A DNA stretch of 64,000 bases from Diphasiastrum complanatum (Eukaryota > Streptophyta > Lycopodiopsida > Lycopodiales > Lycopodiaceae): contig CM055111.1 in the NCBI GenBank assembly GCA_029204225.1, positions 15,451,497 to 15,515,496 on the forward strand. The letters run 5' to 3'. Below, piece by piece: positions 9,580 to 59,604 of the stretch (position 1 is the stretch's first letter; each line of letters begins with the position of its first letter). The notes under the pieces are model-generated. The model had not been told where the DNA came from. It saw nothing but the letters and a program-made list of their open reading frames with translations, and did no database searches. Made by a program: the position numbers and the translations under genes.

Positions 9580-11085
9580 GATCATTATGTATAAGGTGCA
9601 ATCATTCTTACTTAAGTTTTTGGTTGGTTTAAGCTTTTGGTTGATGTTTAGAAAGACTTAGTTGTTTTCGTTGAATCTAGATGAACAACTTTGCTTTTTG
9701 GTTCGTTTGAATCCAAGGTCGTTTGGATAGAAAACGAGCCACCTTTGCTAGCTATGGTAGAAGTTTAACGGTTTTATAAATATTTTTTAGCCGTTTTCCC
9801 TTGGCTGTTAAAATTTTAAGAAACTATTTATGTTTTTTGACCTTGGTTGGGAGTCAGAATCGTAAAAGAAAACTTGTAAATTTTGACTGTTATTTTGTTT
9901 ACAGACAGTAAAAAAAAATTAGAGGTTTTTTTTATGGTTTGGAAGTCCGACTAACTGTCCGTATAGTTGTACGGATAAATTTGGTGGTTACTTGCGAGCG
10001 TGTCCTGCGCGCGGTGCGCCTTCCCAGATTGGGAGCGGACTCCCTGGTAGAACCTCTGCCTGCGGACTATAACGCAGTTGGAGGAGTGGGAATCTTCAAA
10101 AGACATTCAGAGCTTGTTGAATAGTACTTTTCTAGCTACTGAAAGTACATTCATGACCTTTGTCTTAACTAAAAGTGTGCTTTACTTTGTAAACACTTTA
10201 AGCTTTGAAAGCCTTGTGTAATCTTCTCTTTGAACGTAAGTTCTAAGCTACAAAACTTGTTCTTGTACTCCAGAAAGTACATAGTAAACTTTGTTAACAT
10301 TATATACAAAGTTCTAAAGCAAACTTGACTTTTAAAGTTTGCAAACAACTTTTTAAGTTTGCAAAGTTTGTTTTACAAAGTTTATAAACTTCTAAGCTTA
10401 AAAAGCTATCTTAAAAGAATAGCTTTGCTTCTAATTTTTTAAAGGGGAGAAGGGTAAGGAGAAGTACACACAACCTATACTTGTAGGTTGTACTTGCTGC
10501 AAGTACAGACCTGTGTGGCTTTGTTCTCCTCTTCCTTAGCCTCTTCTTTTGCCTCTTTCATCCTCCTTGTAAAGTTTCACCTGCTCATACAAAAAAAATT
10601 TGCAATCCAACCATCCTCATCACTTTTTGGGAGGAAAAGTAAACTTTTTTCCTCCACCTCCTCCTAAGTCTAAGGACAAGCCTTAGAGGAGATTTAGGTG
10701 CTTCTATGGGCCATAAGGCCAAGAGGTCCAGGTGGTGACCCAAAAGGTAGGTGAGGACGTGACCCAAGTAACCCTTGAGTGAGGTGGCATAAGGAGGGTG
10801 GTGGCCATGTGTCTTGAAGGTAGGTGGACCCCATAAGGGTATGCCACTTGTTTTTGGGCCCATGTGCTTGCTAGGTGGCGTCCATAAGGCCCGCCACCCA
10901 GCATGGTCAAAAAAGAAGGAAAAGGTGTGGGGTGGGGGGTAAAGGCTCCATCTTCACCATTGAGGAGCTTAATTGTGGCCTAGCCTCCTTGAGTTGTAGT
11001 CTCAAGCTCCCTAAGCCATTTTGTCGCGAAGCTCTTGCCGTTTTTCCTTTGCCCTTCACCTTAGTGTGCATGGACGGACCCTGTT
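9580..11085 (+). other. Gypsy-1 leader, no gene seen
   Basis: About 1.5 kb between the primer site and the first coding frame. From 10,140 to 10,440 it is rich in imperfect repeats of AAAGTTT/AAACTTT words (CTTTGTAAAC, TTTGCAAAG). From 10,680 to 10,910 the sequence is G/A-rich. Short open frames occur but none resembles a known protein. Confidence 0.5.
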
Positions 11086-12168
11086 ATGCCTTCGGGTGAA
11101 GGACAATCTTCACCACCTCCTCCTCCTGACGTAGATACCAATCAACTTGTACAGGCCTTGAACATGCTGCAAAACCAAATCCTGGATATGCAAGCTAAGC
11201 ATACTGCGGCCGAGCAAGAGTGGAGTTCTTCAACGCACTTGCGGTCCGTTGTCCTTTATCCTATGTTTAATCCGAAATTTCTACCTCCCCATAGGAGTGT
11301 TGACCATCAGATAGAGTTGCTTCCTGGAAGCCAACCTGTATCTCTTTTTCCTTACAAGGTTAGCATCAAGAAAGAGGATGAAATTTCTAGGCAGTTACAA
11401 GAACTTCTTAGGATGGGCCATATTCGGCCTAGTAAGTCCCCTTGGGGAACACCAATCCTTTTAGTTAATAAAACGGATAGCGGCACATGTTTGTGCGGTG
11501 ACTTTAAAAAGTTAAATGATGTAACCCTCAAGAACAGATATCCCTTACCTACGATGGATGATCTTATGGATCATTTGAATGGAGCTAAGTATTTCTCCAA
11601 GATTGATCTTAGATCAGGATACCATCAAATAATTATCAGAATCGAAGATGTTCCTAAGACTGGATTTCAATCTAGGTACGGCCATTATGAGTTTTTAGTG
11701 TTACCTTTTGGACTCACAAATGCACCTGCCACTTTCCAGCAGATGATGAACGATATTCTTCGTCCATATCTGGGAAAGTTTGTGGTGGTGTATTTGGACG
11801 ACATATTAATTTATAGTCGGACCCTTGAGGAGCATGAAGAGCATCTTCGTATTGTCTTGGATCTTCTAAGACAAGAAAAGCTCTATGCTAAAGAGTCAAA
11901 ATGTGAGTTCTGCCAAACTAAACTCAAGGGCCATGTCATATCCGATAAAGGTCTTGAAATCGATTATGACAAAGTTCGTAAGGTACGAGAATGGCCGCGA
12001 CCTCAGACAATTCGTGATGTGAAATTCTTTTTGTGCTTCACCGGATTTTTTCACAGGTTCATTTTGGACTATGCCTTGATAGCATTGCCCTTAACGAATG
12101 TTCTTAAGGGGGTGAAGAAAAAAAGTAGCCGCAGAAAAAGTCCATTGATAACATGGAGAAATGTATGA
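11086..12168 (+). pseudogene. Gypsy-1 gag remnant fused to reverse transcriptase
   Basis: One 360-codon frame. Residues 1-45 look like the start of a plant gypsy gag (acidic, then LVQALNMLQNQILDMQ). They pass straight into the region just before RT, so the rest of gag, the zinc knuckle and protease have been deleted in frame. RT is well preserved: WGTPILLVNK, KIDLRSGYHQI, then FLVLPFGLTNAPATFQ and the catalytic YLDD near 11,791-11,802. GH-ISDKGLEID near 11,930 opens the connection domain. The stop at 12,166 is a frameshift, because the RNase H frame continues from about 12,161. The internal ATG at 11,086 is the natural gag start. RT chemistry could be intact, but without gag and protease it is non-autonomous. 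Confidence 0.85.
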
Positions 12169-13285
12169 GAGTTTTGAGACTCTCAAGCACTGTGTTTCTA
12201 CGGCTCCAATTTACACATTGTCGATCCTAACCGACCGTATCGTGGTTGCTACGGATGCTAGCGACTTTGTTGTAGGAGCGGTCCTTTATCAGGATGGTAG
12301 ACCAGTTGCTTTTGAAAGCAAGAAGCTGGATCCTGCTCAAACAAGGTATTCTACCTATGAGAAGGAGCTTTTTGCAACATTCACGCGTTAAAAATCTGGA
12401 GGCAATATCTTTATGGTGCCAGATTTACGGTGATGACTGATCACCAATCCCCTTTGCTGAGATCCAATCTAATTTGTATCTTTCACTTCGGGATCTTTGT
12501 CAAACCGATGGGTTTTTCGGTTGCGTTTGGCTAGATGTCCTGACGGAAAATTCTAGATCTAGTGATGACCTTGGGATGCAAGATCCCAAGCTATACTTGA
12601 AGACTATTCCATAAGGAATGGCTTGCTTTTCCATAAGGGAAAGGTTTGTGTGCCAGATAGGAAGGACTTGCGAGCCCGAATCTGTAGCAGTGTCATGACA
12701 ACCCTTGTGCTGGTCACCCAGGCATATAGAGGACACTTGACCTTGTCAGGCAGAATTTCTTCTGGCCAAAGATGAAAGGTCATGTCGAGGCATACGTTCA
12801 AGGTTGTGAACAGTGCCAGCAAAATAAAGCAGAAAGACTCAAAGTTGCGGTCTTCTACATCCCTTGGAAATTCCCAACAAGAAAGTATTTCAATGGATTT
12901 TGTGATTGGATTCCCTAAAACCCGGAGCGATCACAATGCCATTTGGGTGGTGGTCAGTCATCACCGTAAATCTGGCGCAATTTATACCAACTAAATCACC
13001 AAGATGGCGCAATTTATACCAACTAAATTAACTGTCAAGGCATCTGAACTAGCCCAGCTTTTCGTTGAAAAGTTGTTCAGATTGTATGGCTTGCCGAATG
13101 ATATTGTTAGTGATCGTGATTTCAAATTCACTGGCAAGTTCTAGCAATCAGAATTTGAAAAACTTGAAACAACCCTTAGTCTTAGTTCTTCAAATCACCC
13201 AGAATTTGATGGGCAGACTGAACGTGTTAACCAGACGTTGGAAGATATGCTTAGAGCATATGTTTCTCACTTACAGTTTGATTGG
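12161..13285 (+). pseudogene. Gypsy-1 RNase H and integrase, broken
   Basis: Several frames. At 12,161-12,500 is RNase H (VVATDASDFVVGAVLYQDG, SKKLDPAQTRYSTYEKELFA, then TDHQSPL). At 12,600-12,850 is a damaged integrase zinc-binding region. At 12,890-13,285 is the catalytic core (SMDFVIGFPKTRSDHNAIWVVV, LYGLPNDIVSDRDFKFTGKF, then [22 protein letters not shown] with the D and E of the DDE site). A short direct repeat (GGCGCAATTTATACCAACTAAAT) near 12,975 and 13,008 duplicates part of the core. The protein stops at the hAT insertion; its continuation is at 25,917. Confidence 0.82.
13278..13285. repeat. Left target-site duplication of the hAT element (TTGATTGG)
   Basis: TTGATTGG here is repeated at 25,917-25,924. 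Eight bases is the length made by hAT transposases. With one copy removed, the gypsy integrase frame is continuous across the junction. Confidence 0.85.
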
Positions 13286-13396
13286 GAACAAAGTTGCATG
13301 AATCGTGATTCAAACCGTTCGAACTATTCGGAGCCGGTTCTAACCGGATTTTTAAAAAAAAAAAAAAAAGCCAAAAAGTCAAAAAAAACGTTTTGG

Positions 13397-13420
13397 AATA
13401 TATATATATATATATATCAT
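13397..13420. repeat. (TA)n tract at the left edge of the palindrome
   Basis: About ten TA units just outside the left arm. A longer AT tract is at the mirror position 25,808-25,855. Confidence 0.9.
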
Positions 13421-13495
13421 AGGTCCCGCGGTACTGGGTAACCGCGGGGACCATACTGGTACCGCGGTACCATGATGGTACCGCGGTACCACAAT
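13421..13495. repeat. Left subterminal array of GGTACCGCGG-type repeats
   Basis: Overlapping copies of GGTACCGCGGTACC and variants (GGTCCCGCGGTACT, GGTAACCGCGG). The mirror array at 25,722-25,804 has one extra unit of about 14 bp. Related words fill the centre at 19,511-19,650. Subterminal repeats of this sort are where hAT transposases bind in known elements; here that role is inferred. Confidence 0.75.
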
Positions 13496-13777
13496 ATAAT
13501 AATATATTTATTATTTAATATTTTTTTTAATTTTTTTTTAACCTAAACCTACCCGCCCCCCTCGCATTTCCTCTGAAATTTTTTTGAGCCCTCTCCGCCC
13601 TGCCATCGCTGCTGGTTTTTCTTGCCTGCCTTTGATTCCTTGCGTCGCCCATCGCCCACAGCAACGCCCTGCCTTGCATCTGATTTCCTTTGCCCTGCAT
13701 TCGCCCATTTTCAGCGTCTCTCCAACAGTGAACCCTGCTGTTTTTTTTCCAGCAATCCATCCCTCATTTCATCTGCA

Positions 13778-16700
13778 ATGGTGCAATCCGACCTTTCCGG
13801 TCTGTGGGACGAGGTAGACATTGTTAGGCGGGTTGCCGACAAGGCCAACAAGACCGGTCAGAAGATCGTGCGCTGCCGATACTGTCTCGTCGAGTTTGCT
13901 GCATCCCTCACTCGCCTTAGTGCACGCGCCAAAAATGGTGCCACCTTGAATGCTGCCCCTTGTGGCAGCATGACCGTCCCCGACAGGCAGCGACTACTGG
14001 ACACCTACGGGCCGCGGCTCGTGGCAGGGGAGAACACCATTTCGGAGGGCGTTCTCCGATTTTGCACCGCTCCTTATGTGACTAACCCAGAGTTGCTGCC
14101 TGCTTGGCTGGCACGCACGAGGAGAGGGAGTGCATCCTCCTCTGGTCCCTTTGCCCCTCAGACAGCTCTGCCTCATGCACCCCCATCTGCTCAGATTCCG
14201 GTGGATCCCGTCCCATCGCGTCCGACAGTTGCCACTGCGGTTCCACCACCACCCACTGTTGCTCGCACTCCACCAGTCTACGACTTTCTCATGGACTCTC
14301 CGCCACCCGAGCAGGCCCAGGATGGTACTGGGCGGGCCTTCGAGGATGTGGAAGAGATCCTTCTTCCTTCCCTTCCCATCCGGATGACCTCCTCAGCCAG
14401 CAGTTTTCGTACCCCATGCCAGATGTTGCCCCTCCACCAGTGCACCCCACCTATGCTGCTGCACCCATCCCTGCCAGTGCATCCCACTCTCCCCATTCCA
14501 CGTCTACAGCCGATGCATCCACCAGCGCCCAGCCTGTCGCGTCATCGTCCATTCCCGTCACGGTTGGTGCACCGTGCTGGAGGTCCACCACCCGTCGTCC
14601 ACCAGGGAGAGCCTCGTGCAGCAGACCATTCGCGGCGCGCATCAGCCGCACATGGACAGAGAGGCCACACAGGCCGTGGCCAGTCTGGTTTACGAGCTGA
14701 ACCTGCCCTTTGCCATCACCGACTCTGAGCCCTTCAGAAGGGCCTTCCGCCTTGCACAGTCTGTCAGCCCTAGCTGGAGAGTCCCTAGTTCAGAGGTTGT
14801 CCGCACACACATGCTGAGGGATAGGGTCGAGTCCTTGTCTAGAGAGATGGAGCCTCTGCGTCGGCACTGGGCCACTTACGGTTGCAGCATCATGTCCGAT
14901 GGCTGGACTGATGTCAGGAGGAGGCCGATCCTCAACATACTGGTCTCCAGCTGCATGGGCACACAGTTTTTGAGGGCAGTGGATTGCAGCAGGGGGGGGG
15001 AGAGTCATATCTGCAGAGTTCATGTTTGATGTCATCAGGTCTTCCATCCTAGCCATAGGCCCACAGCATGTCGTCACGGTGGTGACGGACAATGCCACGA
15101 ACTGCATTCAGATGGGTGTACTGCTAGAGGCCGAGTTCCCTCATATTGTTCATACCCCCTGTGCAGCCCACGGCATAGACCTTTTGATGGGGGACATTGG
15201 AGCACTTCCCTGGGTTAGAGCCATCGTCCGGGAGGCCCTCTTCCTGGTGACTTTTGTCACCAGAAAGAGGCGTGTTCTTGCCATGTTCCGGGTGTTTAGC
15301 CATCTGGACCTCCGTAAGCCAGCCCCCACGCGCTTTGCATTCGACTTGGTGGTCATCGACCGTTTGATCAGGTGCAGGGCCCAGCTTCTACAGATGGTTG
15401 CCAGTGATCTTTGGGGTGCCAGTACATTTCCGCACACTGAGGATGGGGAGCACTTTTCTTCCACGGTGAGGGGAGACCAGTTCTGGAGGGATGCACAGAC
15501 ATTGTCAGGACTGCTTCGACCACTCTACATTGTGCTCCGCATGGCTGACAGCGAGGGGTCGACACTTGGACTGGTGTATGAGCTCATGGACCGGATTGGA
15601 CAGTTCCTGCAGCTGCCCATCTTGCAGCCAGAGAGGTAAGCGGTACAGTGTTGCAATTGACCTTTATCTTTTCAGTACTTGCTAGTTTGTTTTTCTGTCA
15701 ATGTTAAGCTTTTTCGTAATGCCCTAAACCACATGCCCCTCACCTGCAGGATGACAGAGCTGAAGTTCATATGGGAGACGCGATGGAACTACTTCCACAG
15801 GAGTATCCACAGCGTTGCACACATGCTGCATCCCCTCTTCCTCTCTCCGACACAGATCGCAGACAGGGAGCTCGAGGCCGATTGGCTTCAGTACATTCAC
15901 AGGGTGGGTCCACACATAGGTTTGGATCCTATCAGGCTCATGGAGGAGCTCGCTGCATTTTGTTTCGGCATGGGCACATTCGGCCACCCGGCTGCCCAGG
16001 ATCCAGAGAGGAGGCAGCTACCCATTACCTGGTGGACCATGTTCGGTAGCACATACCCATCTATACAGCGTCTTGCACTGCGTGTCCTTTCTCAGGTATG
16101 CATCTCATTTTATCCTCCATTTTTTGTGTTTCGTTGAAGTTTCACCTCTGCCACAATGTGCTGAAGTATTTCAATGCACGCACCACAGGACTGTGCTGCC
16201 TCCGTGTGTGAGCGTAACTGGAGCACATGGGCACTCATTCGCACGAGGAGAAGAAACCGGTTGTCAGTGAGTCAGTTGGAGCGGTTGGTGTTCTGTAGCA
16301 CCAACGCACGTCTCGCCAGGAGGCTTCCGACCATTACGAACGCATTGCAGGTGATAAGCTAATCTTTCATAGCATGTTGGTTGACTCCTGGTATGTTGGT
16401 TTCATTTCTTGATAAAGTTGTCTCTCTGACATGCAAATTTTAAACCTTGCAGACGAAGATATCTGATTTGGAGCGCCAGGTTGACTTGCCTACGGACAGC
16501 ACCCATCCCATGCCTGCAGATGACCTGGGCACACAGTTGATGGCAGAGAGAGAGAGGGAGCTTGCCGAGATGAGAGAGAGAGAGCTTGGGCTTGAGCACA
16601 GAGAGCCCCCATTGTATGAGGCAGATGAGCCAGTGTCAGAGGATGAGCATGATGAGGATGAGCCCATTCGGGTTGTGTTTGCCAGACCAGAGAGGGATGA

Positions 16701-18081
16701 GGCAGATTATACAGGTGCAGGGCACACGCCACGGGCAGGGGTCACAGGTGCATCACGTGGCAGAGGTGGGACACATGGCACAGGTTATACCGGCAGACAG
16801 GCAGGGCACACAGGGGGGGGCAGTGGCATACCTACCTATGTCGACATGATGGAGGAGGCTCTTGATAGAGGGCAGAGTGGTTTAGATGCCGGTCTCGCAG
16901 ATGTTTGGATGCGTGCAGCACAGAGTCATGGCCGTTACTACGACAGCACACCAGAGGAGGCACCTGATGACTTTCATTGCACAGATTGGGAGGCCATGCA
17001 GGGTCTACAGGGTGCACATGATGAGGCACGGGATGAGGCTTGGGTTGATTCAGGGGTTGGTGCACAGGATGATTCCGAGGTCGGTGCACAGGATGATTTA
17101 GAGGCTGGTGCACAGGATGAGTCCCAGAGCCCAGAGCATTTGTATTCGGATGCCCAGCTGGCCGACTTGGTTGCCACATTGGATTCAGAGGCCCAGCAGA
17201 TGCCGAGTGTCAGGGCGCCCCCATCATCTCTTGCCAGCATGCCACACACAGAGTCCCAGCCAGAGCAGCCGCATGAGGTGCCTACAGTTCCTCCAGCTCC
17301 TCAGAGGGTGTATGTGCGTCGCACAGCTCCTCCAGTGCCACCGATGCCATTTAGGCCTGCAGCCCCTCCATCGCCGTCCACTTCTGCAGCACCAGGTCTC
17401 CATGGCAGGCCACCATCTGTGCCCAGGTTTTCTCTTGCAGCGCCCACATCCACAGTGGCTCCTCCAGTGGCAGCACGCACGTCACATCCTCCTCCTTTGG
17501 CAGCACCCAGGATGTACCAGTACCGGCCACCACAGCGCCCCTTTCAGTACATATCGCCACTGTACTCGCCTCCTGCACAGCCAGTTCCTCCACCTGCAGC
17601 AGCCCCACGGGCACACACTCCACGAGCTCATCCTCCTCGCTCAGTTGCACAGGGAGTTCCCTCTTTTGCTTCCCTATCCCAGCTGGCCTCAGCTTGGGCC
17701 CAGCCTAGCCAGCCAGGTGATTTGCATGGGGGTGACTAGGCATTGACAGCTCCTCTTGTCCGCAAGAGACCAGGCAGGCCCAAGGGTGCACCGAACAAGA
17801 AAGGCAAGGCACAGAAACTGCCAGGGAGGAGAGGACGACCACGCAGGGCTCCAGGTACAGGTAGAGGTGCAGTATCACAGCCAGTTGGAGCAGGTGTTGT
17901 TGGTTTGGCCTGCTTGGGGGCTGATGCGGAGGCTGATTGGGAGGATGAGGATGACGAGTCTTCCCCCTCGGATACACAGCCCATGCCAGTTCCAGACAGG
18001 CAGAGATATCGGCTGCGAGAGTCAGCTCGTGGCCCTGAGTTGTCTCCAGAGCATTCGTCTGAGTCAGAGCCAGAGCATTGA
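13778..18081 (+). pseudogene. hAT transposase, left arm (BED finger, DUF659, dimerisation domain, AT-hook tail)
   Basis: The start ATG at 13,778 opens WDEVDIV and a BED-type finger (VRCRYC). The usual RLKGHLLG is shortened here by 15 bases, so KGHLL with the zinc-binding His is missing; the right arm keeps it. A Pro/Ser-rich linker follows. The DUF659/catalytic core begins near 14,620, with CSIMSDGWTD (14,880-14,911), VVTDNATN (about 15,080) and CAAHGIDLL (about 15,160). Introns with GT-AG ends are visible at 15,635-15,749, 16,097-16,188 and 16,351-16,452. CERNWSTW near 16,210 is the C-terminal hAT dimerisation signature. The tail is acidic, then Pro-rich, then has AT-hook-like KRPGRPKG and GRRGRPRR (17,765-17,850). 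A ninth G at 14,992-15,000, lesions near 14,370 and 14,570, and TAG at 17,737 break it. The role would be cut-and-paste transposition. Confidence 0.8.
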
Positions 18082-18611
18082 TTGTGGCTCTGTTGTTTTA
18101 GTTTCAGTAGTTTGTCTCTAGCAGACGGTCTACCATTGTACTCAGATGATTTTTCACATTATATACAGTGTTTGGCCTACATTATTTGCTGCACATTGTG
18201 CGTATGTCGCTCTGTACATGTGATGCTTTATTTTATGTTGAAGAATTATATGTGCGTGTGTGAATCCTATTTTCATTTAATTTCGTTTGAAGTGAATGCT
18301 AGCTTCACATATATGCACCTACATCATGAGCACAGCAATCACCCCTACACCCCAAACGACATTGAATAAACACATGTAATACATCTGCATTTAAAAAATT
18401 TACAAACATTGCATCTTACATGACCAGGCTCGCGTTGCACAAAAAACAACTATGTATATATTCAACCGTTGTATCAGGATAACATCACATATACTGTCAT
18501 TTTTTTAAGCAGCCATCTAGTTATTTGCTGCACCATAAACTGCCGAAAACTACATAGCAACAGTCCGCCACATACGGTGGACCTCATCTATTCTAAACAT
18601 CCCTCACTGAT

Positions 18612-18961
18612 CCTCCACCAACTCCTCGCCCTCGTCTGGTGCATTGTTTTGTAGCTCTTGCTCTGCCTCCCGGTTAGCCCGAGCTGCCCTCCTGGTTAGC
18701 CCGACGTCTGGCCGCCCTTTCCCTGACCATGATGAGCTGCCGTCGTGTGAAATTCATTCCGATCTGCTCATCCAGATCCAGCTCAACAGGATCCACAGCG
18801 GGGGCGGGTGGCTCCGGTTCCGGATTTCTCTGTCGAGTCTGTCGCAGCATCTCTCGGATATCTGCCTCTTGCTTCCGATGCCTCTCGTTGTGCCTTCGGA
18901 TATCTTCCTCAAGCTTTCTCCTGGCTTCGCCCTCGGGCTTCGGTGGTATTCGCTCAGCCAT
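18612..18961 (-). pseudogene. Small accessory gene of the hAT element, left arm
   Basis: Minus strand, convergent with the transposase. The ATG at 18,961 opens MAERIPPKPEGEARRK. A charged helix follows (LEEDIRRHNERHRKQEADIREM), a Pro/Glu hinge, then DLDEQIGMNFTRRQL and a basic helix (MVRERAARRRANQE). An extra G near 18,690 shifts the frame, giving an early stop; the right arm keeps the original end. Unbroken it would be about 120 residues, highly charged and probably helical. I recognise no family. Its retention in both arms and conserved position argue that it is a real element gene, perhaps a DNA-binding or regulatory partner like second genes of other plant transposons; that is inference. 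Confidence 0.55.
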
Positions 18962-19129
18962 CTCGATCGACCTTCTCCTCACAGCACCCTGATCCTTGAA
19001 CACCCTCTCACAGCACCCTGGCTCTCAAACAACCTCTCACAGCCTGTCACCGGCTCTCGCTTGCTCTCTCACTGTCTATCACTAGCCCTCTCACAGCCTC
19101 TGAAAATGCCGACCACAATGGCATTGTGA

Positions 19130-19370
19130 GTGCCTATTTATCCCCACAGCCTGATCGGCCATGTGGATCCCCATCATCCCTCCATGTGCCTCCGTACCTG
19201 CCCCCATGTGATGCTCCCCCCTATGTTGGTCTCCCATTGGGCCCATGGTCTGCTCACCCACAATGCCCATGTGCCTCTGTACTTGCCCCCATGTGATGCT
19301 ACCCCCCCTGTGTTGGTCTCCCATTGGCCCCTCGGTCTGCTCACTCGCAGTGCCCATGTGCCATTGCAAC
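19130..19370. repeat. Tandem repeat of about 88 bp, left arm
   Basis: Two units and a partial third upstream of the small gene, each with CCCATGTGCC, GTTGGTCTCCCATTGG and TCTGCTCAC. The same array lies in the right arm at 19,795-19,990. These could be regulatory or transposase-binding repeats. Confidence 0.7.
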
Positions 19371-19510
19371 AGTCCCCTGCATCATGTACTGTACCCTCTT
19401 TTTTTACACCCAGAACCCCCCTTTTTTACTTTTTTTGTCCTTTTTTGGTAGTTAATATGCAAAAAAAATTACTGAAAATATATTAAAAAATAAAAAAAAA
19501 ATATTAAAAA

Positions 19511-19650
19511 TGGTACCGCCCTGGTACCGCGGATCCCAGGGCGGTACCGTACCGGCGGTCTGGTACCGCTGGTATGGTACCGCCGGTACCATATCAGTGG
19601 TACCGCCGGTACAGGTACCGCCCTGGGATCCGCGGTACCAGGGCGGTACC
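19511..19650. repeat. Centre of the palindrome, GGTACC-rich hairpin
   Basis: About 140 bp made of GGTACCGCC, GGTACCGCGG and GGATCC words, symmetrical about 19,580. TGGTACCGCCCTGG on the left is answered by CCAGGGCGGTACCA on the right, and the middle is GGTACCGCCGGTACC. There is no unique spacer between the arms, so the centre can form a cruciform. Confidence 0.85.
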
Positions 19651-19794
19651 ATTTTTAATATTTTTTTTTTATTTTTTAATATATTTTCAGTAATTTTTTT
19701 TTGCATATTAACTACCAAAAAAGGACAAAAAAAAGTAAAAAGAGGGGGTTCTGGGTGTAAAAAAAGAGGGTACAGTACATGATGCGGGGACTGT

Positions 19795-19990
19795 TGCAAT
19801 GGCACATGGGCACTGCGAGTGAGCAGACCGAGGGCCAATGGGGAGACCAACACAGGGGGGTAGCATCACATGGGGGTAAGTACAGAGGCACATGGGCATT
19901 GTGGGTGAGCAGACCATGGGCCCAATGGGAGACCAACACAGGGGGGAGCATCACATGGGGGCAGGTACGGAGGCACATGGAGGGATGATG
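19795..19990. repeat. Tandem repeat of about 88 bp, right arm
   Basis: Units starting GCACATGGGCA at about 19,802 and 19,889 and a partial one at 19,973. Each contains GAGCAGACC and GGAGACCAACACAGGGGG. Mirror of 19,130-19,370. Confidence 0.75.
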
Positions 19991-20203
19991 GGGATCCACA
20001 TGGCCGATCAGGCGTGTGGGGATAAATAGGCACTCAACAATGCCATTGTGGTCGGCATTTTCAGAGGCTGTGAGAGGGCTAGTGATAGACAGTGAGAGAG
20101 CAAGCGAGAGCCGGTGACAGGCTTGTGAGAGGCTGTTTGAGAGCCAGGGTGCTGTGAGAGGGTGTTCAAGGATCAGGGTGCTGTGAGGAGAAGGTCGATC
20201 GAG

Positions 20204-20571
20204 ATGGCTGAGCGAATACCACCGAAGCCCGAGGGGCGAAGCCAGGAGAAAGCTTGAGGAAGATATCCGAAGGCACAACGAGAGGCATCGGAAGCAAGAG
20301 GCAGATATCCGAGAGATGCTGCGACAGACTCGACAGAGAAATCCGGAAACCGGAGCCACCCGCCCCCGCTGTGGATCCTGTCCCCGCTGTCGAGCTGGAT
20401 CTGGATGAGCAGATCGGAATGAATTTCACACGACGGCAGCTCATCATGGTCAGGGAAAGGGCGGCCAGACGTCGGGCTAACCAGGAGGCAGCTAGGGCTA
20501 ACCGGGAGGCAGAGCAAGAGCGACAAAACAATGCAGCAGACGAGGTCGAGGAGTCGGTGGAGGATCATTGA
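20204..20571 (+). pseudogene. Small accessory gene of the hAT element, right arm
   Basis: Mirror copy of 18,612-18,961. The ATG at 20,204 follows a GA-rich leader with repeats of GTGAGAG. An extra G near 20,233 and an extra A near 20,346 break the reading frame early. A 9-base duplication (CCCGCTGTC) near 20,382 adds PAV residues. The second half is intact and ends RRANQEAARANREAEQER, then VEESVEDH and TGA. The gene would make about 121 residues: two charged helices joined by a Pro-rich hinge. Family unknown. The left copy keeps the start and this one keeps the end. Confidence 0.55.
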
Positions 20572-21097
20572 GGGATGTTTAGAATAGATGAGGTCCACCC
20601 GTATGTGGCGGACTGTTGCTATGTAGGTTTTCGGCAGTTTATGGTGCAGCAAATAACTAGATGGCTGCTTAAAAAAATGACAGTATATGTGATGTTTATC
20701 CTGATACAACGGTTGAATATATACATAGTTGTTTTTTGTGCAACGCGAGCCTGGTCATGTAAGATGCAATGTTTGTAATTTTTTTAAATGCAGATGTATT
20801 ACATGTGTTTATTCAATGTCGTTTGGGGTGTAGGGGTGATTGCTGTGCTCATGATGTAGGTGCATATATGTGAAGCTAGCATTCACTTCAAACGAAATTA
20901 AATGAAAATAGGATTCACACACGCACATAGAATTCTTCAACATAAAATAAAGCATCACATGTACAGAGCGACATACGCACAATGTGCAGCAAATAATGTA
21001 GGCCAAACACTGTATATAATGTGAAAAATCATCTGAGTACAATGGTAGGACCGACTGCTAGAGACAAACTACTGAAACTAAAACAATAGAGCCACAA

Positions 21098-24000
21098 TCA
21101 ATGCTCTGGCTCTGACTCAGACGAATGCTCTGGAGACAACTCAGGGCCCGAGCTGACTCTCGCTGCCGATATCTCTGCCTGTCTGGAACTAGCATGGGCT
21201 GTGTATCCGAGGGGGAAGACTCGTCATCCTCATCCTCCCAATCAGCCTCCGCATCAGCCCTCAAGCAGGCCAAACCAACAACACCTGCTCCAACTGGCTG
21301 TGATACTGCACCTCTACCTGTACCTGGAGCCCTGCGTGGTCGTCCTCTCCTCCCTGGCAGTTTCTGTGCCTTGCCTTTCTTGTTCGGTGCACCCTTGGGC
21401 CTGCCTGGTCTCTTGCGGACAAGAGAGCTGTCAATGCCTCGTCACCCCCATGCAAATCACCTGGCTGGCTAGGCTGGGCCCAAGCTGAGGCCGGCTGGGA
21501 TTAGGGAAGCAAAAGAGGGAACTCCCTGTGCAACTGAGCGAGGAGGATGAGCTCGTGGAGTGTGTGCCCGTGGGGCTGCTGCAGGTGGAGGAACAGGCTG
21601 TGCAGGAGGCGAGTACAGTGGCAATATGTACTGAAAGGGGCGCTGTGGTGGCCGGTACTGGTACATCCTGGGTGCTGCCAAAGGAGGAGGATGTGACGTG
21701 GGGTGCTGCCACTGGAGGAGCCACTGTGGATGTGGGCGCTGCAAGAGAAAACCTGGGCACAGATGGTGGCCTGCCATGGAGACCTGGTGCTGCAGAAGTG
21801 GACGGCGATGGAGGGGATGCAGGCCTAAATGGCATCGGTGGCACTGGAGGAGCTGTGCGACGCACATACACCCTCTGAGGAGCTGGAGGAACTGTAGGCA
21901 CCTCATGCGGCTGCTCTGGCTGGGACTCTGTGTGTGGCATGCTGGCAAGAGATGATGGGGGCGCCCTGGACACTCGGCATCTGCTGGGCCTCTGAATCCA
22001 ATGTGGCAACCAAGTCGGCCAGCTGGGCATCCGAATACAAATGCTCTGGGCTCTGGGACTCATCCTGTGCACCAGCCTCTAAATCATCCTGTGCACCGAC
22101 CTCTGAATCATCCTGTGCACCAACCCCTGAATCAACCCAAGCCTCATCCCGTGCCTCATCTGTGCACCCTGTAGACCCTGCATGGCCTCCCAATCTGTGC
22201 AATGAAAGTCATCAGGTGCCTCCTCTGGTGTGCTGTCGTAGTAACGGCCATGACTCTGTGCTGCACGCATCCAAACATCTGCGGGGACCAGCATCTAAAC
22301 CACTCTGCCCTCTATCAAGAGCCTCCTCCATCATGTCGACATAGGTAGGTATGCCACTGCCCCCCCCTGTGTGCCCTGCCTGTCTGCCGGTTATAACCTG
22401 TGCCATGTGTCCCACCTCTGCCACGTGATTGCACCTGTGACCCCTGCCCGTGGCGTGTGCCCTGCACCTGTATAATCTGCCTCATCCCTCTCTGGTCTGG
22501 CAAACACAACCCGAATGGGCTCATCCTCATCATGCTCATCCTCTGACACTGGCTCATCTGCCTCATACAATGGGGGCTCTCTGTGCTCAAGCCCAAGCTC
22601 TCTCTCTCTCATCTCGGCAAGCTCCCTCTCTCTCTCTGCCATCAACTGTGTGCCCAGGTCATCTGCAGGCATGGGATGGGTGCTGTCCGTAGGCAAGTCA
22701 AACCTGGCGCTCCAAATCAGATATCTTCGTCTGCAAGGTTTAAAATTTGCATGTCAGAGAGACAACTTTATCAAGAAATGAAACCAACATACCAGGAGTC
22801 AACCAACATGCTATGAAAGATTAGCTTATCACCTGCAATGCGTTCGTAATGGTCGGAAGCCTCCTGGCGAGACGTGCGTTGGTGCTACAGAACACCAACC
22901 GCTCCAACTGACTCACTGACAACCGGTTTCTTCTCCTCGTGCGAATGAGTGCCCATGTGCTCCAGTTACGCTCACACACGGAGGCAGCACAGTCCTGTGG
23001 TGCGTGCATTGAAATACTTCAGCACATTGTGGCAGAGGTGAAACTTCAACGAAACACAAAAAATGGAGGATAAAATGAGATGCATACCTGAGAAAGGACA
23101 CGCAGTGCAAGACGCTGTATAGATGGGTATGTGCTACCGAACATGGTCCACCAGGTAATGGGTAGCTGCCTCCTCTCTGGATCCTGGGCAGCCGGGTGGC
23201 CGAATGTGCCCATGCCGAAACAAAATGCAGCGAGCTCCTCCATGAGCCTGATAGGATCCAAACCTATGTGTGGACCCACCCTGTGAATGTACTGAAGCCA
23301 ATCGGCCTCGAAGCTCCCTGTCTGCGATCTGTGTCGGAGAGAGGAAGAGGGGATGCAGCATGTGTGCAACGCTGTGGATACTCCTGTGGAAGTAGTTCCA
23401 TCGCGTCTCCCATATGAACTTCAGCTCTGTCATCCTGCAGGTGAGGGGCATGTGGTTTAGGGCATTACGAAAAGCTTAACATTGACAGAAAAACAAACTA
23501 GCAAGTACTGAAAAGATAAAGGTCAATTGCAACACTGTACCGCTTAACCTCTCTGGCTGCAAGATGGGCAGCTGCAGGAACTGTCCAATCCGGTCCATGA
23601 GCTCATACACCAGTCCAAGTGTCGACCCCTCGCTGTCAGCCATGCGAGCACAATGTAGAGTGGTCGAAAGCAGTCCTGACAATGTCTGTGCATCCCTCCA
23701 GAACTGGTCTCCCCTCACCGTGGAAGAAAAGTGCTCCCCATCCTCAGTGTGCGGAAATGTACTGGCACCCCAAAGATCACTGGCAACCATCTGTAGAAGC
23801 TGGGCCCTGCACCTGATCAAACGGTCGATGACCACCAAGTCGAATGCAAAGCGCGTGGGGGCTTGGCTTACGGAGGTCCAGATGGCTAAACACCCGGAAC
23901 ATGGCAAGAACACGCCTCTTCTGGTGACAAAAGTCACCAGGGAAGAGGGCCTCCCGGACGATGGCTCTAACCCAGGGAAGTGCTCCAATGTCCCCCATCA

Positions 24001-25433
24001 AAAGGTCTATGCCGTGGGCCTGCACAGGGGGTATGAACAATATGAGGGAACTCGGCCTCTAGCAGTACACCCATCTGAATGCAGTTCGTGGCATTGTCCG
24101 TCACCACCGTGACGACATGCTGTGGGCCTATGGCTAGGATGGAAGACCTGATGACATCAAACATGAACTCTGCAGATATGACTCTCCCCCCCCTGCTGCA
24201 ATCCACTGCCCTCAAAAACTGTGTGCCCATGCAGCTGGAGACCAGTATGTTGAGGATCGGCCTCCTCCTGACATCAGTCCAGCCATCGGACATGATGCTG
24301 CAACCGTAAGTGGCCCAGTGCCGACGCAGAGGCTCCATCTCTCTAGACAAGGACTCGACCCTATCCCTCAGCATGTGTGTGCGGACAACCTCTGAACTAG
24401 GGACTCTCCAGCTAGGGCTGACAGACTGTGCAAGGCGGAAGGCCCTTCTGAAGGGCTCAGAGTCGGTGATGGCAAAGGGCAGGTTCAGCTCGTAAACCCA
24501 GACTGGCCACGGCCTGTGTGGCCTCTCTGTCCATGTGCGGCTGATGCGCGCCGCGAATGGTCTGCTGGCACGAGGGCTCTCCCTGGTGGACGACGGGTGG
24601 TGGACCTCCAGCACGGTGCACCAACCGTGACGGGAATGGACGATGACGCGACAGGCTGGGCGCTGGTGGATGCATCGGCTGTAGACGTGGAATGGGGAGA
24701 GTGGGATGCACTGGCAGGGATTGGGTGCAAGCAGCATAGGTGGGGTGCACTGGTGGAGGGGCAACATCTGGCATGGGGTACGAAAAACTGCTGGCTGAGG
24801 AGGTCATCCGGATGGGAAGGGAAGGAAGAAGGGATCTCTTCCACATCCTCGAAGGCCCGCCCAGTACCATCCTGGGCCTGCTCGGGTGGCGGAGAGTCCA
24901 TGAGAAAGTCGTAGACTGGTGGAGTGCGAGCAACAGTGGGTGGTGGTGGAACCGCAGTGGCAACTGTCGGACGCGATGGACGGGATCCACCGGAATCTGA
25001 GCAGATGGGGGTGCATGAGGCAGAGCTGTCTGAGGGGCAAAGGACCAGAGGAGGATGCACTCCCTCTCCCTCGTGCGTGCCAGCCAAGCAGGCAGCAACT
25101 CTGGGTTATGTCACATAAGGGAGCGGTGCAAAATCGGAGAACGCCCTCCGAAATGGTGTTCTCCCCTGCCACGGAGCCGCGGCCCGTAGGCGTCCAGTAG
25201 TCGCTGCCTGTCGGGGACGGTCATGCTGCCACAAGGGGCAGCATTCAAGGTGGCACCATTTTTGGCGCGTGCACCGAGCAGATGGCCTTTAAGGCGAGTG
25301 AGGGATGCAGCAAACTCGACGAGACAGTATCGGCAGCGCACGATCTTCTGACCCGGTTCTTGTTGGCCTTGTCGGCAACCCGCCTGACAATGTCTACCTC
25401 GTCCCACAGACCGGAAAGGTCGGATTGCACCAT
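21098..25433 (-). pseudogene. hAT transposase, right arm
   Basis: Mirror of the left-arm gene with ATG at 25,433 and stop at 21,098. It keeps features the left arm lost: the complete finger helix RLKGHLLG (about 25,275-25,300), the correct eight-G run near 24,190 (SRGGRVISAEF), and GAG instead of TAG near 21,442, so the AT-hook tail is read through. It has its own lesions: two extra bases near 25,350 within the finger, an extra G in CAAH near 24,027, and further single-base changes near 23,630-23,900 and 22,170-22,430. Neither arm encodes an intact protein as read, but they are broken at different places. Many differences are one-base homopolymer changes, which could be errors in long-read sequence. 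Confidence 0.8.
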
Positions 25434-25721
25434 TGCAGATGAAATGAGGGATGGATTGCTGGAAAAAAAACAGCAGGGTTCACTGTTGGAGAGACGCTGA
25501 AAATGGGCGAATGCAGGGCAAAGGAAATCAGATGCAAGGCAAGGGCGTTGCGTGGGCGATGGGCGACGCAAGGAATCAAAGGCAGGCAAGAAAAACCAGC
25601 AGCGATGGCAGGGCGGAGAGGGCGCAAAAAAATTTCAGAGGAAATGCGAGGGGGGCGGGTAGGTTTAGGTAAAAAAAAATTAAAAAAAATATTAAATAAT
25701 AAATATATTATTATATTGTGG

Positions 25722-25804
25722 TACCGCGGTACCATCATGGTTACCGCGGTACCAGTATGGTCCCGCGGTACCGGGATCCGCGGTTACCCAGTACCGCGGG
25801 ACCT
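25722..25804. repeat. Right subterminal array of GGTACCGCGG-type repeats
   Basis: Mirror of 13,421-13,495 with an additional CCGGGATCCGCGG unit. It ends at the AT-dinucleotide tract 25,808-25,855. Confidence 0.75.
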
Positions 25805-25805
25805 A

Positions 25806-25844
<39 letters not shown>

Positions 25845-25916
25845 TTATATATATACTTCGGTTCAAACCGTTTTTTCAGTTCGAACCAGCCTGGCCAATC
25901 GAATCGACTTGTAACC

Positions 25917-25924
25917 TTGATTGG
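25917..25924. repeat. Right target-site duplication of the hAT element (TTGATTGG)
   Basis: Identical to 13,278-13,285 and directly followed by the rest of the gypsy integrase frame (GKYLPMVEF). Confidence 0.85.
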
Positions 25925-25979
25925 GGAAAGTATCTCCCAATGGTTGAGTTCGTGCACAAGTCGTCGGTCGCTCACGTCG

Positions 25980-26294
25980 GGAAATTGAGGTCAGAACCTG
26001 GGTGTATCTTAAAATCCCTAAGGATTCAAAGGTACTTCGGACGAGAAAATGTAGTATCCTCAACATCAGAGATATTAGGGATGATGTCCCTCTGCAAAGC
26101 ACTAAGCGCAGCACGAAGAGAAGCAATTTCAGGTCTGTTGAGCGTCAATCGTGGCAGTCTTAGTAAGCAAATCCGCACGAAGTTCATTGAGTTGTGAAAG
26201 GAAAAGCAGCAAATTGCTTAGAAATGTACTCATTCAGTGAGGAGATGTTCTCAGGAGTGGTGTGCCGCGTGTAGGTGTGGTGTGTGTCTCCCAT
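25980..26294 (-). pseudogene. Coiled-coil gag- or ORF1-like fragment
   Basis: On the minus strand a frame opens MGDTHHTYTRHTTPENISS at 26,294 and continues through QLNELRADLLTKTATIDAQQ. After a one-base shift it goes on EIASLRAALSALQRDIIPN and fades near 25,980. The heptad pattern suggests a coiled coil, as in the first ORF of LINEs or in plant gag proteins. A (CT)n tract lies upstream on this strand, as before LINE copy B ORF1. No domain is certain. Confidence 0.4.
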
Positions 26295-47801: not shown

Positions 47802-50155
47802 CTAAAATGAATATGTACAAAATTGCTTATATCTGAATGACTTCCTTCTATCCTGCAGATTATGTCGAATCTCCACAAAATGTTCTACAAGGTTTCGCTC
47901 CCAATCCACATATAGACTGAATAATTCTGGATACGCCATATTAATGTTGATCAGCAACCCTGCATCGTCGAATGCGCCTAAATTTGCAACAGCTTTGGGT
48001 TTGTATAATTGAAACTGCGACTTTCGCTTCCAAAAATGTTGCTTATTGTTTTCGTTCTGCAAAAATTGAAGTTCTTTGATGTGAATGTATTCGAGAGCAT
48101 ACATAGCCGAAGAGCCTATGCATAACTCTGTTGTCCCGAAAGGTAGGACTTTAAACTTTCCATGGATTATGCCCCAGCAGAGACATCCTTTCTGCTCGAT
48201 AGAAAGCTGTCGCTTCCAATCGTTGAAGACGATGCCTACTGCGCCTGGTAGCATCATATAATCCATACGTCATTGTAATTCAATGTTAAAAGCAGGTGGA
48301 CACCATTTTCAGAAGCGTTCAGCAAATGCACGGAATTCGTCAGCACATACCTTCGACGGATTCTGCCACATTCGCTTTGGCTGTGTAGATGCAGTTGCCA
48401 AGTCCTGAGTTTGCAACTCAACAGCTAGCTTCTGATCTTCCATTTGTTGTTGGAGATCTCACAGCTCCTGTTCGAGCTTGTCAATCTTTACGATTGCTTC
48501 TAGATACTCGGGATGGTCTGAGGCTCTGGTGCAGGCATGCACAGATGGAATTTGTTGTGTAAGGTCATCAATTCTGAGTAAGGCCTGAAAGTACTCGTCG
48601 TGTGCATCTGGTCCGCTGCAAGATGGGTTAGCTTCACTCGAAAACTCCATTAGCTCTGCCAATTCTTCCTCGACAAGAGCCTTCGAATCCTCGAGTGGTT
48701 GTAGGAACTCAACTCGAAAATTGTCGAGCATCTGACCTTGGAGCTGGTTTAGCTTCGTGAGGTCGACTGTAACGAACCCTGCATTGGTGCATATAGAGAG
48801 AGCAACTTTTGCCTTTAGTCTTCTCATTCATTCCTCTTGGAAATGTTTCTGGAGCGCGACATTATGTTGATTTGCAGTTGTCAGTTGCTGCTTTAAAGAA
48901 TCATTTTGAGTCTGATAATTATCAGACTTGGCCTCAATCGCCTTATTGATCTGTTTTAAAAAATTAGCTTCCTTTATTAAGGTTTGAAGCTGTGTGTTGA
49001 GAGAATGATTTCGTTCAATCAGCTTTGTGTTTTCTGATTCGAGCGAATCAATCTTCTCGAAAGACGCCTTGAGATCCTCTTGGCATCTCCTTTCTGAGTT
49101 GACAAATTCCATCGTAATTTGCTGGTGGTACTTGTTCAACTCATACACTTCAGCCACTAGGTTTTTGGCTTTCTCGGTCATAGTGCGAAACCACTGGGGC
49201 TGGTCGTTTGGTTGTTCTTCATTTGCCACATGTGCCCCAGTGTCGCCTTCAGCAGTTGTTTGTCTTTTTCTGATGTATCAGACTGAGTTGCGTCATCATC
49301 AGAGGAGGAGGCCCTCGTCTGCTTTTGAGATGTGGAAGCAGATGCGTGCTGTGAAGAATCAACAACAGCAGCAGTAGCTCCATCAGCCTCCATCGCCACA
49401 GTTGGGACTAGTTCCGACTGGGATGGTGCAACGTCAATGTCCATAGTAGTGGTAGCTGCTACTTCGACGGTTGGTGCAATTTTAGTAACGAGGCCGGAAA
49501 TATCAATTGGCTTGGAGGCCAACATTCTTCCCGTCAGCAATGTTTTCTCTTGCTCGTTCAAAATGTCAAAATGGACGCATAGCCGAGAGACATGTGCTCC
49601 AACTCCAGAAATTTTTTGGTGCTTGATCCAGCGCAAAAATGCTTTATATCTAATAGTGCCGAAACAAACCGGATTACCCGCAAGTGCGTCTAAGATGTAA
49701 CCAAAATTTTGCACTGAAATTGTCGCATCAACATCCGTCAAAAAGAGTACTTGGTTTGCAAATTTACAAAACATCTTAAATGTGGTATCACGAATCATAG
49801 AGATCTTGTACCCCTTCATGGGTACGAAGCAATTGTTAAGGAAGTGGGCAGCTTCATCCACCGAATCCTTATTTGTTGAGATCATCTTCCCATCCATCGG
49901 TAATCCAAGGGCTGTGCAAAACAAGTCTTCAGAGATAGTGAAGAATTTGCCTCGCACATGGACTTTGAAATCAACCTCCGAAATGGAATGAATGGAGTTG
50001 ACAAACTTTGTACTGACTTCGGAGAGGATGATGGAGGGGTCCACTTTTAAATTACCCAACCTGCATCGATCCAAAAAGGACTGGATGGATGCCAGGCAGA
50101 TTCCTGCGCGTGCTTTCGAGATGATGTTAGAGCTTGAACTGGATCCAGAAGCCAT
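47802..50155 (-). pseudogene. Long ORF downstream of gypsy-2 pol; plant-transposon-protein-like N-terminus, coiled coil
   Basis: On the minus strand pieces at 50,155-49,178, 49,229-48,828, 48,827-48,459 and 48,266-47,802 align end to end. They are separated by a frameshift near 49,200, a single in-frame TGA at 48,828-48,830 and stops near 48,270, implying one former protein of about 750-800 residues. The N-terminus (FVNSIHSISEVDFKVHVRGK, then ALGLPMDGK and LRWIKHQKISGVGAHVSRL) resembles the domain annotated in plants as putative plant transposon protein. Next are an Ala/Thr/Ser-rich region and long coiled coils (KIDSLESENTKLIERNHSLN, DKLEQEL). The C-terminal part is unrecognised. It follows integrase on the same strand, where env-like or other extra ORFs sit in plant gypsy elements. 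Function unknown. Confidence 0.6.
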
Positions 50156-50558
50156 TGTTTGAATTTTTCACGAAAGCTCGTAGATCGCAATAGGTCGCAA
50201 ATGAATGCTTTGATCGCAAAGAGAATGTGCACAGGAAAGCATAAAATCGCAGGCAAAAAGTGTAAGGAAGAAAAATGAAAAATAACTCTGATTTGCAGTA
50301 GCGGTGTGGAAGGGATGATGACGTGGCATGGTGACTTGACATCTGACACTTCCATTTATGGAGTACGTGCATGGGTCAGTGTTTGAAACTATGATTTGAC
50401 AGATCGATCTTTAATGACGGAAGACCGTTTTTGAAAAGAAAACAAATAAATTAAGGAAAAACAATATCTGTTTTGATATGTGAGTGTACACACGTGTGAA
50501 TAATGAGGATCATGTGGCCATCATCTTTAATAGAGGGATGTAAAAAGTAGGTAGATAG
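50156..50558. other. Leader upstream of the gypsy-2 extra ORF
   Basis: AT-rich sequence between the ORF start and the TTCnnGAA cluster. No gene seen. Confidence 0.4.
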
Positions 50559-57808: not shown

Positions 57809-59604
57809 ATTAGGGCCCTTTTTGGACTCAAAAAGGGCCTCTTCCTTGCCTAAACAGGTTTGTTAATCATAATTAGTTTAGTGTTAATCAATCCTACGTG
57901 GCACTTTTACCTTGGGTTACCACATAGGGTGAGCAAGAGTTAAGGGCTAAGTATAGGTCCCATCATCCATAGACTTTTGTAGGTACTTTGTAAGGCAAGA
58001 CTAGCATATTCATTGTCTTGGTTCCAATAGGACAACAACTAGGGCTCTAGGTGGGACATAGACTTGCAGGCCTCATTTAATGCCCAAGTACATTTCAAAT
58101 TTGAAAATTGCTTATGAATTTTAATCAACCCACTTTTGTGTCCCCCTTCACATTCAAACTAAGACTACCTCATTAGTCTTTCACATACCAAATAATTTAT
58201 TTTTTTCAGATGGATATTATTTTTTTCAAAATTGGCCTTTAGGATACATTTTCATTTCACCATGGATTTAGTCTGTTTGACCTCATAACCTCAAAAAAAG
58301 TGTTTATAAGTCAATTTGTTTTTATTAGTTTGCAAACAAAAATATATTCCGGAAGCCAGTTTTTTGTTTTTTTTTGGCCCGAAATCGTGATTTTTGGCCG
58401 TTTCACTTCATCAGAAGGCCAAAAATTGCGTTTCGGACCAATTTTTTTTTTTTTTAAAATCACGGTAAGGCACGATTTTGGGCCGTTTGACTTGGTCAAA
58501 TGGCCCAAAATCACACCTTATCGTGATTTTGAATTTTTTTTTTTTTGGTCCGAAACGCAATTTTTGGCCTTCTAATGAAGTGAAACGGCCAAAAATCACG
58601 ATTTCGGGCCCAAAAAAAATGATATATTTTTGTTTGCAAACTAATAAAAACAAATTGACTTGTAAACACCTTTTTTGAGGTTCTGAGGTCAAACAGACTG
58701 AATCCATAGCGAAACAAAAAAGTATCTCCCAGAGGCCAATTTTTCGTTTTTTTTGGTCCAAAATCGCGATTTTTGGCCGTTTCGCTTCATCAAAAGGCCA
58801 AAAATTATGTTTCGGACCAATTTTTTTTTTTTTCTTTTCAAAATCACGGTAAGGCGCGATTTTGGGCCTTACCAAAAAAAAATCATTAGTCAAATGGCCC
58901 AAAATCGCGCCTTACCGTGATTTTGAATTTTTTTTTTTTGGTCCAAAACGCAACTTTTGGCCTTCTGATGAAGTGAAACGGCCAAAAATCGCGATTCGGG
59001 CCAAAAAAAAAAATGAAAAATTGGCCTTCGGGATACATTTCTGTTTGTAAGCTAATAAAGATAAATTGACTTATAAACACTTTTTTTGAGGTTCTGAGGT
59101 CAAACAGACTAAATCCATGGCGAAATGAAAATGTATTCCAAAGGTCAAATTTGAAAAAAAATGATATCCATCTGAAAAAAATAAATTATTTGGATGTGAA
59201 AGACTAAAGAAAGTGAGGTAGTCTTAGTTTGAATGTGAAGGGGGACACAAAAGTGGGTTGATTAAAATTCATAAGCAAGTTTCAAATTTGAAATGTACTT
59301 GGGCATTAAATGAGGCTTGCAAGTCTATGTCTCACCTAGAGCACTAGCTGTTGTCCTATTGTTGGCTACTAGGTACTGTGTGTAGTATTGTTGGTTACTA
59401 GGTACTTTCAAGTGTATCCATGTAGGATTAATGCTAGAGGTGTACTTTGTGGGCCCACACTTGATTTAATCTACACCATTGAATCTGCCATGTCATATGG
59501 ACCATTTCTGCTCAATTGTCACACTTTTATTGGTACACGTGTCATCATTAACACTAATCCAGGTTAGTGAAGAGGCCCTTTTTGAGTTCAAAAAAGGCCC
59601 TAAT
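57809..59604. mobile_element. Foldback element of nested palindromes, 1.8 kb
   Basis: The ends are ATTAGGGCC-CTTTTTGGACTC on the left and its near mirror on the right; each tip is itself a small hairpin (GGGCC-CTTTTTG/CAAAAAGGGCC). The outer 450 bp on each side are inverted repeats (for example CATTTAATGCCCAAGTAC at 58,074 and GTACTTGGGCATTAAATG at 59,297). The middle holds two further hairpins centred at about 58,493 and 58,880, built from one unit (GGCCAAAAAT, CGATTTTTGGCCGTTT, CGGTAAGG-GCGATTTTGGGCC). TA flanks both GGGCC ends, a possible TA target duplication, but ATTA/TAAT symmetry makes this ambiguous. No transposase, so it is non-autonomous. Poly-Lys/Phe frames across it are compositional. 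Confidence 0.75.

Follow-up and report, generated by a model that had tools for sequence, protein, structure and literature searches.

A window of 64,000 nucleotides from contig CM055111.1 of the clubmoss Diphasiastrum complanatum (the whole stretch of DNA analysed here) carries, at positions 13,286-25,916, an insert that contains two inverted copies of a hAT-type transposon. Is such an insert a single palindromic mobile unit, as an earlier note on this DNA had claimed, or a pair of elements nested in another one, and could its transcripts silence the family? In plants, the silencing of a transposon family may plausibly start from a natural inverted duplication that holds an entire transposon, genes included, and Mu killer is a well-known case of silencing by inverted duplication. 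A full-length hAT case with a junction defined at the base level would make both formation and silencing testable in an early-diverging vascular plant. A nested insertion is also easily mistaken for a single palindromic mobile unit. We conclude that the locus is probably a full-length inverted dimer of a clubmoss-type hAT element of ~6.15 kb that arose by duplication and lies nested within a small terminal inverted repeat (TIR) element.

A palindrome within a split gypsy integrase

Comparison of the window with itself by BLAST gave one dominant inverted match, in which 13,398-25,827 aligned with its own reverse complement at 97.9% identity over 12,529 columns. The match is far above chance level, since the next longest self-match among those listed (E-value up to 1e-10), located at 58 kb, covers only 631 columns. 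A global alignment of the arms, from CATAGG at 13,418 to CCTATG at 25,807, contained 6,113 identities in 6,245 aligned columns and placed the centre of symmetry at 19,583. The near-perfect palindrome described in the earlier note is therefore real, but the arm start that it gave, 13,421, is not retained: the start lies at 13,398 if the (TA)n border is included, or at 13,418 if it is set at CATAGG.

The borders of the insert are as follows.
13278-13285, no strand: target-site duplication TTGATTGG, left copy (with the following G, 9 bp and ending at 13286)
13,286-25,916: insert, starting with GAACAAAG and ending with TTGTAACC
13398-13417, no strand: (TA)n tract, left border of the palindrome
25808-25855, no strand: (TA)n-rich tract, right border of the palindrome
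25917-25924, no strand: target-site duplication TTGATTGG, right copy (followed by G, possibly 9 bp)

Copies of TTGATTGG start at 13,278 and 25,917 and bracket the whole insert; because the base that follows (G) is common to both, the duplication is 8 or 9 bp long. Once the insert and one copy of TTGATTGG were deleted, a gypsy integrase frame was open across the junction for 50 joined codons. This is a clean empty site, and the insertion split a gypsy integrase. Both the 8-bp border duplications and the clean split had been claimed before, and both hold.

The host gypsy element (11065-13277 and 25919-26194) has a reverse transcriptase domain. Many frame changes lie between reverse transcriptase and integrase, so the element is either decayed or poorly polished.

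Two apparently near-complete elements joined tail to tail

The two arms, their end clusters and the spacer between them are positioned as follows.
13418-19571, plus strand: left arm, near-complete hAT-type element with predicted 5' end CATAGGTCCCG and predicted 3' end (reverse strand) CAGCGGTACC
13458-13490, no strand: GGTACC/CCGCGG cluster of the left arm 5' end, with 4 GGTACC
19512-19650, no strand: central GGTACC/CCGCGG cluster of both 3' ends, with 10 GGTACC
19572-19594, no strand: spacer GTATGGTACCGCCGGTACCATAT, 23 bp between the 3' ends, folding at the centre of symmetry into a hairpin whose loop is GCC
19595-25807, minus strand: right arm, reverse-complement copy with predicted 3' end CAGTGGTACCGCCGG at 19,595 and predicted 5' end CATAGGTCCCG at 25,807
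25720-25772, no strand: GGTACC/CCGCGG cluster of the right arm 5' end, with 4 GGTACC

GGTACC occurs 23 times in the window, 18 times within the three end clusters, five times outside the insert and never inside the arms. When the 141-bp 5' end was aligned with the two 3' ends, scores of 106 and 101 were obtained; the best unrelated stretch of the window reached 67 in 1,672 comparisons, from which the top one (143, the right arm's own and thus homologous 5' end) was excluded. The GC-rich part of the 5' end alone scored 51, against 29 for the best match elsewhere. These comparisons repeat the end analysis against real window sequence; earlier shuffles had kept base composition only. At the terminus itself, CATAGGTCCCG-CGGTAC of the 5' end aligns with CAGTGGTACCGCCGGTAC of the right arm 3' end, and when 21-mers were drawn from both strands at intervals of 7 bases, none of the 18,148 others scored as high. 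The terminal inverted repeats of hAT elements begin with approximately YARNG. The 3' ends, CAGTG and CAGCG, fit this consensus, the 5' end, CATAG, misses it at the third base, and the two ends of an element align imperfectly.

Given the GGTACC/CCGCGG repeats at both ends, the absence of GGTACC from the interior, the matching termini and the two genes described below, each arm resembles a whole or almost whole hAT-type element, ~6.15 kb long. We read the two arms as joined tail to tail, with the 5' (transposase-start) end on both outsides. A 26-base sequence of the 5' end had no exact match in viral contigs, a set that may lack records close to the genome of the window, and Rfam at gathering scores gave no matches.

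Genes of the arms

Each arm carries two genes.
13778-18081, plus strand: transposase gene, left arm, from MVQSDLSG to EPEH-stop; frame interrupted, with introns likely, and taken as a putative single gene
18610-18961, minus strand: open reading frame 2 (ORF2), left arm, encoding a small charged protein and pointing towards the transposase gene
20204-20571, plus strand: ORF2, right arm, from MAERIPPKPE to ESVEDH stop; frame interrupted
21098-25433, minus strand: transposase gene, right arm, with DUF659 and more frame breaks than the left; keeps KGHLLGA

DUF659 exceeded the Pfam cut-off in both arms, with E-values of 2.2e-17 and 6.6e-19 in two frames of the left arm and 1.7e-32 in the right, so that each arm carries a hAT transposase domain. 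Dimer_Tnp_hAT in the left arm reached 18.5 bits, below its cut-off of 21.4; many transposase homologues hold both DUF659 and the hAT dimerisation domain. The left transposase is laid out as a BED-like finger region, DUF659, the sub-threshold Dimer_Tnp_hAT and a long, low-complexity C-terminus with two AT-hook-like motifs. A 15-bp gap relative to the right arm, near 13,919, removes KGHLL from the left zinc-finger region.

The DUF659 query had 364 protein matches at E-values up to 0.001 among 7,999 candidates scored. Of the 120 matches listed, those with a named source are from ferns (among them Ceratopteris and Adiantum) and seed plants, plus one Diphasiastrum protein; the best of all those listed shares 70% identity across 72% of the query. 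Only two of 7,994 candidates matched the transposase C-terminus, a Diphasiastrum complanatum protein (77% over 38% of the query) and one other (34%). ORF2, searched as a composite of the two arms, had a single match at E-values up to 1 among 95 candidates, a D. complanatum protein at 86%; as read, the left and right copies are 73% (103 columns) and 66% (111 columns) identical to it. Both arm genes thus have relatives in a clubmoss (Lycopodiaceae). A fern host, which the Ceratopteris and Adiantum matches of the DUF659 part might suggest, was rejected in favour of a clubmoss on account of the 86% and 77% matches to D. complanatum. ORF2 had no Pfam match; it may be an accessory gene that belongs to this lineage of hAT elements. 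The assignment to hAT and the presence of two genes twice, head on, which the earlier note had both proposed, are borne out by these results.

Each arm also contains, near its inner end and upstream of ORF2, a tandem repeat of 86-87 bp in 2.1 copies (19182-19362 and 19801-19980).

Outer pieces beyond the palindrome

The outermost 112 and 61 bp of the insert lie outside the palindrome.
13286-13397, no strand: left part of a probable outer TIR/MITE-like (miniature inverted-repeat transposable element-like) element, holding GTTCGAAC and CGGTTCTAACCG
25856-25916, no strand: right-hand piece of the probable TIR/MITE-like element, holding CGGTTCAAACCG and GTTCGAAC

Neither piece contains GGTACC or CCGCGG. 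In the window, GTTCGAAC occurs only at 13,317 and 25,879, which is 31 and 30 bp from the outer ends; the sole positions of CGGTTNNAACCG are 13,335 and 25,859. Joined to each other, the two pieces fold end to end under RNA energies, with (TA)n in the loop. The ends beside TTGATTGG, namely GAACAAAG and GGTTACAAG, are not hAT-like inverted ends and gave no significant terminal alignment. The outer pieces are probably the halves of a small, degenerate MITE-like or TIR element with a (TA)n loop. Since they lie outside the palindrome and fold together, TTGATTGG more likely marks this outer element, in which case the hAT pair would be nested in its (TA)n. Only (TA)n surrounds the arms, and the duplication of 8 or 9 bp surrounds the probable outer element.

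Two parts of the earlier account are not supported as they stood. The palindrome stops short of the ends of the insert, as 13,286-13,397 is no mirror image of 25,856-25,916, and the insert does not look like one mobile unit inside one pair of 8-bp duplications, as each arm has hAT-like ends and end repeats of its own and the sequence beside TTGATTGG, which belongs to neither arm, resembles a separate small TIR element.

Differences between the arms

The arms differ by 32 substitutions, 56 one-base indels and five longer indels of 14, 15, 6, 5 and 3 bp. The alignment displays 33 substitutions, since it also counts the centre base, which there faces its own complement. Substitutions are unevenly distributed, with three in the outer 586 bp, none in the next 2,886 bp (14,004-16,889) and 29 in the inner 2,693 bp (about 1.1%); none of 100,000 random placements left a substitution-free gap that large. 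The same 2,886 bp hold 26 of the 56 one-base indels. Of the 56 one-base indels, 49 lengthen or shorten a run of identical bases, against an expected 44% for a randomly inserted base. Because 14,004-16,889 lacks substitutions and yet contains many one-base indels, many of the arm differences are best explained as uncorrected long-read consensus errors over DNA that is truly identical. The uneven substitutions point to gene conversion between the arms or to two copies that recombined, and the longer indels, such as the 15 bp that delete KGHLL from the left arm, may be real differences. Relative to the closest protein relative (P0001), the DUF659 part needs one frame change in the left arm and three in the right, so the right arm seems to be less corrected. 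The 2% divergence of the arms was rejected as a measure of age: substitutions are fewer than one-base run-length indels, and 26 of the 56 one-base indels lie in the stretch that has no substitutions.

Outside the palindrome, a copia-type reverse transcriptase frame (60767-62632, minus strand, 622 aa, RVT_2) is open. That so long a frame stays open suggests good consensus at least in that region.

Other features in the window

Smaller inverted repeats lie at 58025-59361, with arms of about 600 bp that are 84% alike and with internal repeated pieces. An open frame of 329 aa with no Pfam match lies on the minus strand at 49181-50167.

Origin of the locus and alternative explanations

A nested history would begin with the small TIR element, which would have jumped first into the gypsy integrase and created the TTGATTGG duplication; the hAT dimer would then occupy the (TA)n loop of that element. 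The dimer itself most likely arose either by aberrant transposition during replication, of the sister-chromatid type, or by fold-back copying. Fold-back copying could have been primed at the GGTACC hairpin, possibly in place. Because the reverse complement of (TA)n is again (TA)n, a copy extended outward past the 5' end would carry a (TA)n able to anneal to the tract on the opposite side. Subsequent exchange between the two arms would have kept nearly 3 kb identical. Events of the sister-chromatid type are consistent with a dimer that is joined at its tails and bears a 5' end on each outside. They would leave one 8-bp duplication around the dimer and a repair junction inside it; the inner junction here is a 23-bp hairpin, and any 8-bp duplication around the dimer would be masked by (TA)n.

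Several observations weigh against a nested dimer with complete ends. The outer ends are poor TIRs, with a best local alignment score of 28 that is matched by 9% of shuffles (p about 0.09), and an equal number of mirrored 8-mers was found in 255 of 100,000 random window pairs. The fold of the joined outer pieces has a z-score of -1.9 without the TA tract, and the -6.8 reached when the tract is included reflects mostly TA pairing. As to the arms, the CA ends were picked by eye before the 21-mer test and the ends share base composition; the left 3' end aligns less well because of five extra bases; the 5' end, CATAG, deviates from the hAT consensus at its third base; and a (TA)4 duplication around the dimer is indistinguishable from a (TA)n microsatellite.

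A rival reading, that of the earlier note, takes the whole of 13,286-25,916 for one palindromic hAT transposon whose ends are the outermost sequences and whose insertion in one piece produced the 8-bp TTGATTGG duplication. An 8-bp duplication suits hAT, the outer pieces and the arms are set apart by nothing more than (TA)n, the empty site is clean and the outer ends have mirrored motifs in common. We nevertheless regard this as unlikely, as the outer ends have no hAT-like start and are weakly alike in comparison with arms that are 97.9% alike, the arms own matching ends, and the outer pieces lack the GGTACC/CCGCGG of the arms and pair with each other. It is less likely still that two members of the same family inserted independently, side by side and in opposite orientation, and not through one duplication event. 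All four element ends are seemingly present, and the distribution of substitutions (29 of 32 inner, three outer and none between) would suit two slightly different copies with a conversion tract; however, no target duplication is seen between the two 3' ends, and what lies there is not (TA)n flank but a 23-bp hairpin composed of the GGTACC motif of the family itself.

An assembly or long-read fold-back artefact, with only one arm real, appears very improbable. The excess of one-base run-length indels suggests poor consensus, both borders lie in (TA)n, and fold-back artefacts in long reads have been described (PMC12870357), but the arms differ by 32 substitutions and by the five longer indels. 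A simple fold-back read was rejected, as it would repeat the left flank in reverse, whereas the flank on the right supplies the remaining half of the same integrase. The full-length dimer nested in a small TIR element remains the reading that we favour.

Potential for hairpin RNA and silencing

The two transposase genes are convergent, reading inward from the outer ends (plus strand from 13,778 and minus strand from 25,433). Because they converge, a transcript that crosses the centre from either outer end holds its own reverse complement. The geometry for hairpin formation that the earlier note had pointed out, inverted arms with convergent genes, is thus present. A centre-crossing transcript would be expected to give double-stranded RNA and small interfering RNA against the hAT family. 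A real silencing role for the dimer is doubtful, and the dimer is more likely a by-product than a selected silencer. It would be highly improbable that a full-length palindromic dimer of an autonomous-type hAT uses its pair of identical 5' ends to move as a unit and, at each new site, silences its own family dominantly through hairpin RNA, in effect a mobile Mu killer.

Comparison with known systems

In foldback elements such as Tetris and Tm1, most of the element consists of very long inverted repeats, as it does here. Their arms are usually rich in tandem repeats and their coding part, if any, is central, whereas the arms of the present locus are gene-bearing copies of a whole element. The double Ds of maize likewise comprises two inversely oriented hAT copies at one site, but there one copy lies inside the other, whereas here neither arm is interrupted. 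Nesting of the double-Ds kind was rejected for the present locus, as the longest gap of one arm relative to the other is 15 bp. According to one study, no chromosome-breaking double Ds was found in B73 (PMC3260210).

Ac/Ds elements can use ends on sister chromatids and insert into unreplicated DNA, which generates inverted duplications and composite insertions (PMC8225341, PMC4270019). The likeness to the present dimer lies in hAT ends that act across replicated copies to yield such products. The maize composite insertions described there carry flanking chromosomal DNA, whereas here the element itself is duplicated and the dimer is a possible product of such an event.

In layout the dimer resembles Mu killer (Muk), a derivative of the maize Mutator-like element (MULE) MuDR. 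In Muk, an inverted duplication of the transposase gene gives transcripts that could fold back, and both outer TIRs come from the side of mudrA, the transposase gene (PMC3440606). The dimer has this layout, with an inverted transposase duplication and the same element end on both outsides. Muk inverts a partial mudrA of about 1.3 kb from a MULE, whereas here a full-length, two-gene hAT of about 6 kb is inverted; Muk silences MuDR, whereas the present dimer is known from sequence alone. In the same paper, silencing accompanied short antisense transcripts and read-through sense transcripts accompanied failure to silence; the read-through hairpin model is disputed there, and long hairpins are left as a possible minor contribution (PMC3440606). 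Because read-through transcripts went with failure to silence, the long hairpin is an unsafe model even for Muk.

In a narrow search of the open-access literature, we found no paper that combined a palindromic hAT, inverted duplication and hairpin RNA, no tail-to-tail or inverted-dimer element among the best matches by title or opening of the abstract, and no use of the term 'palindromic transposon' in papers on long inverted repeats. The full-length, two-gene hAT dimer of the present locus is unusual and well preserved.

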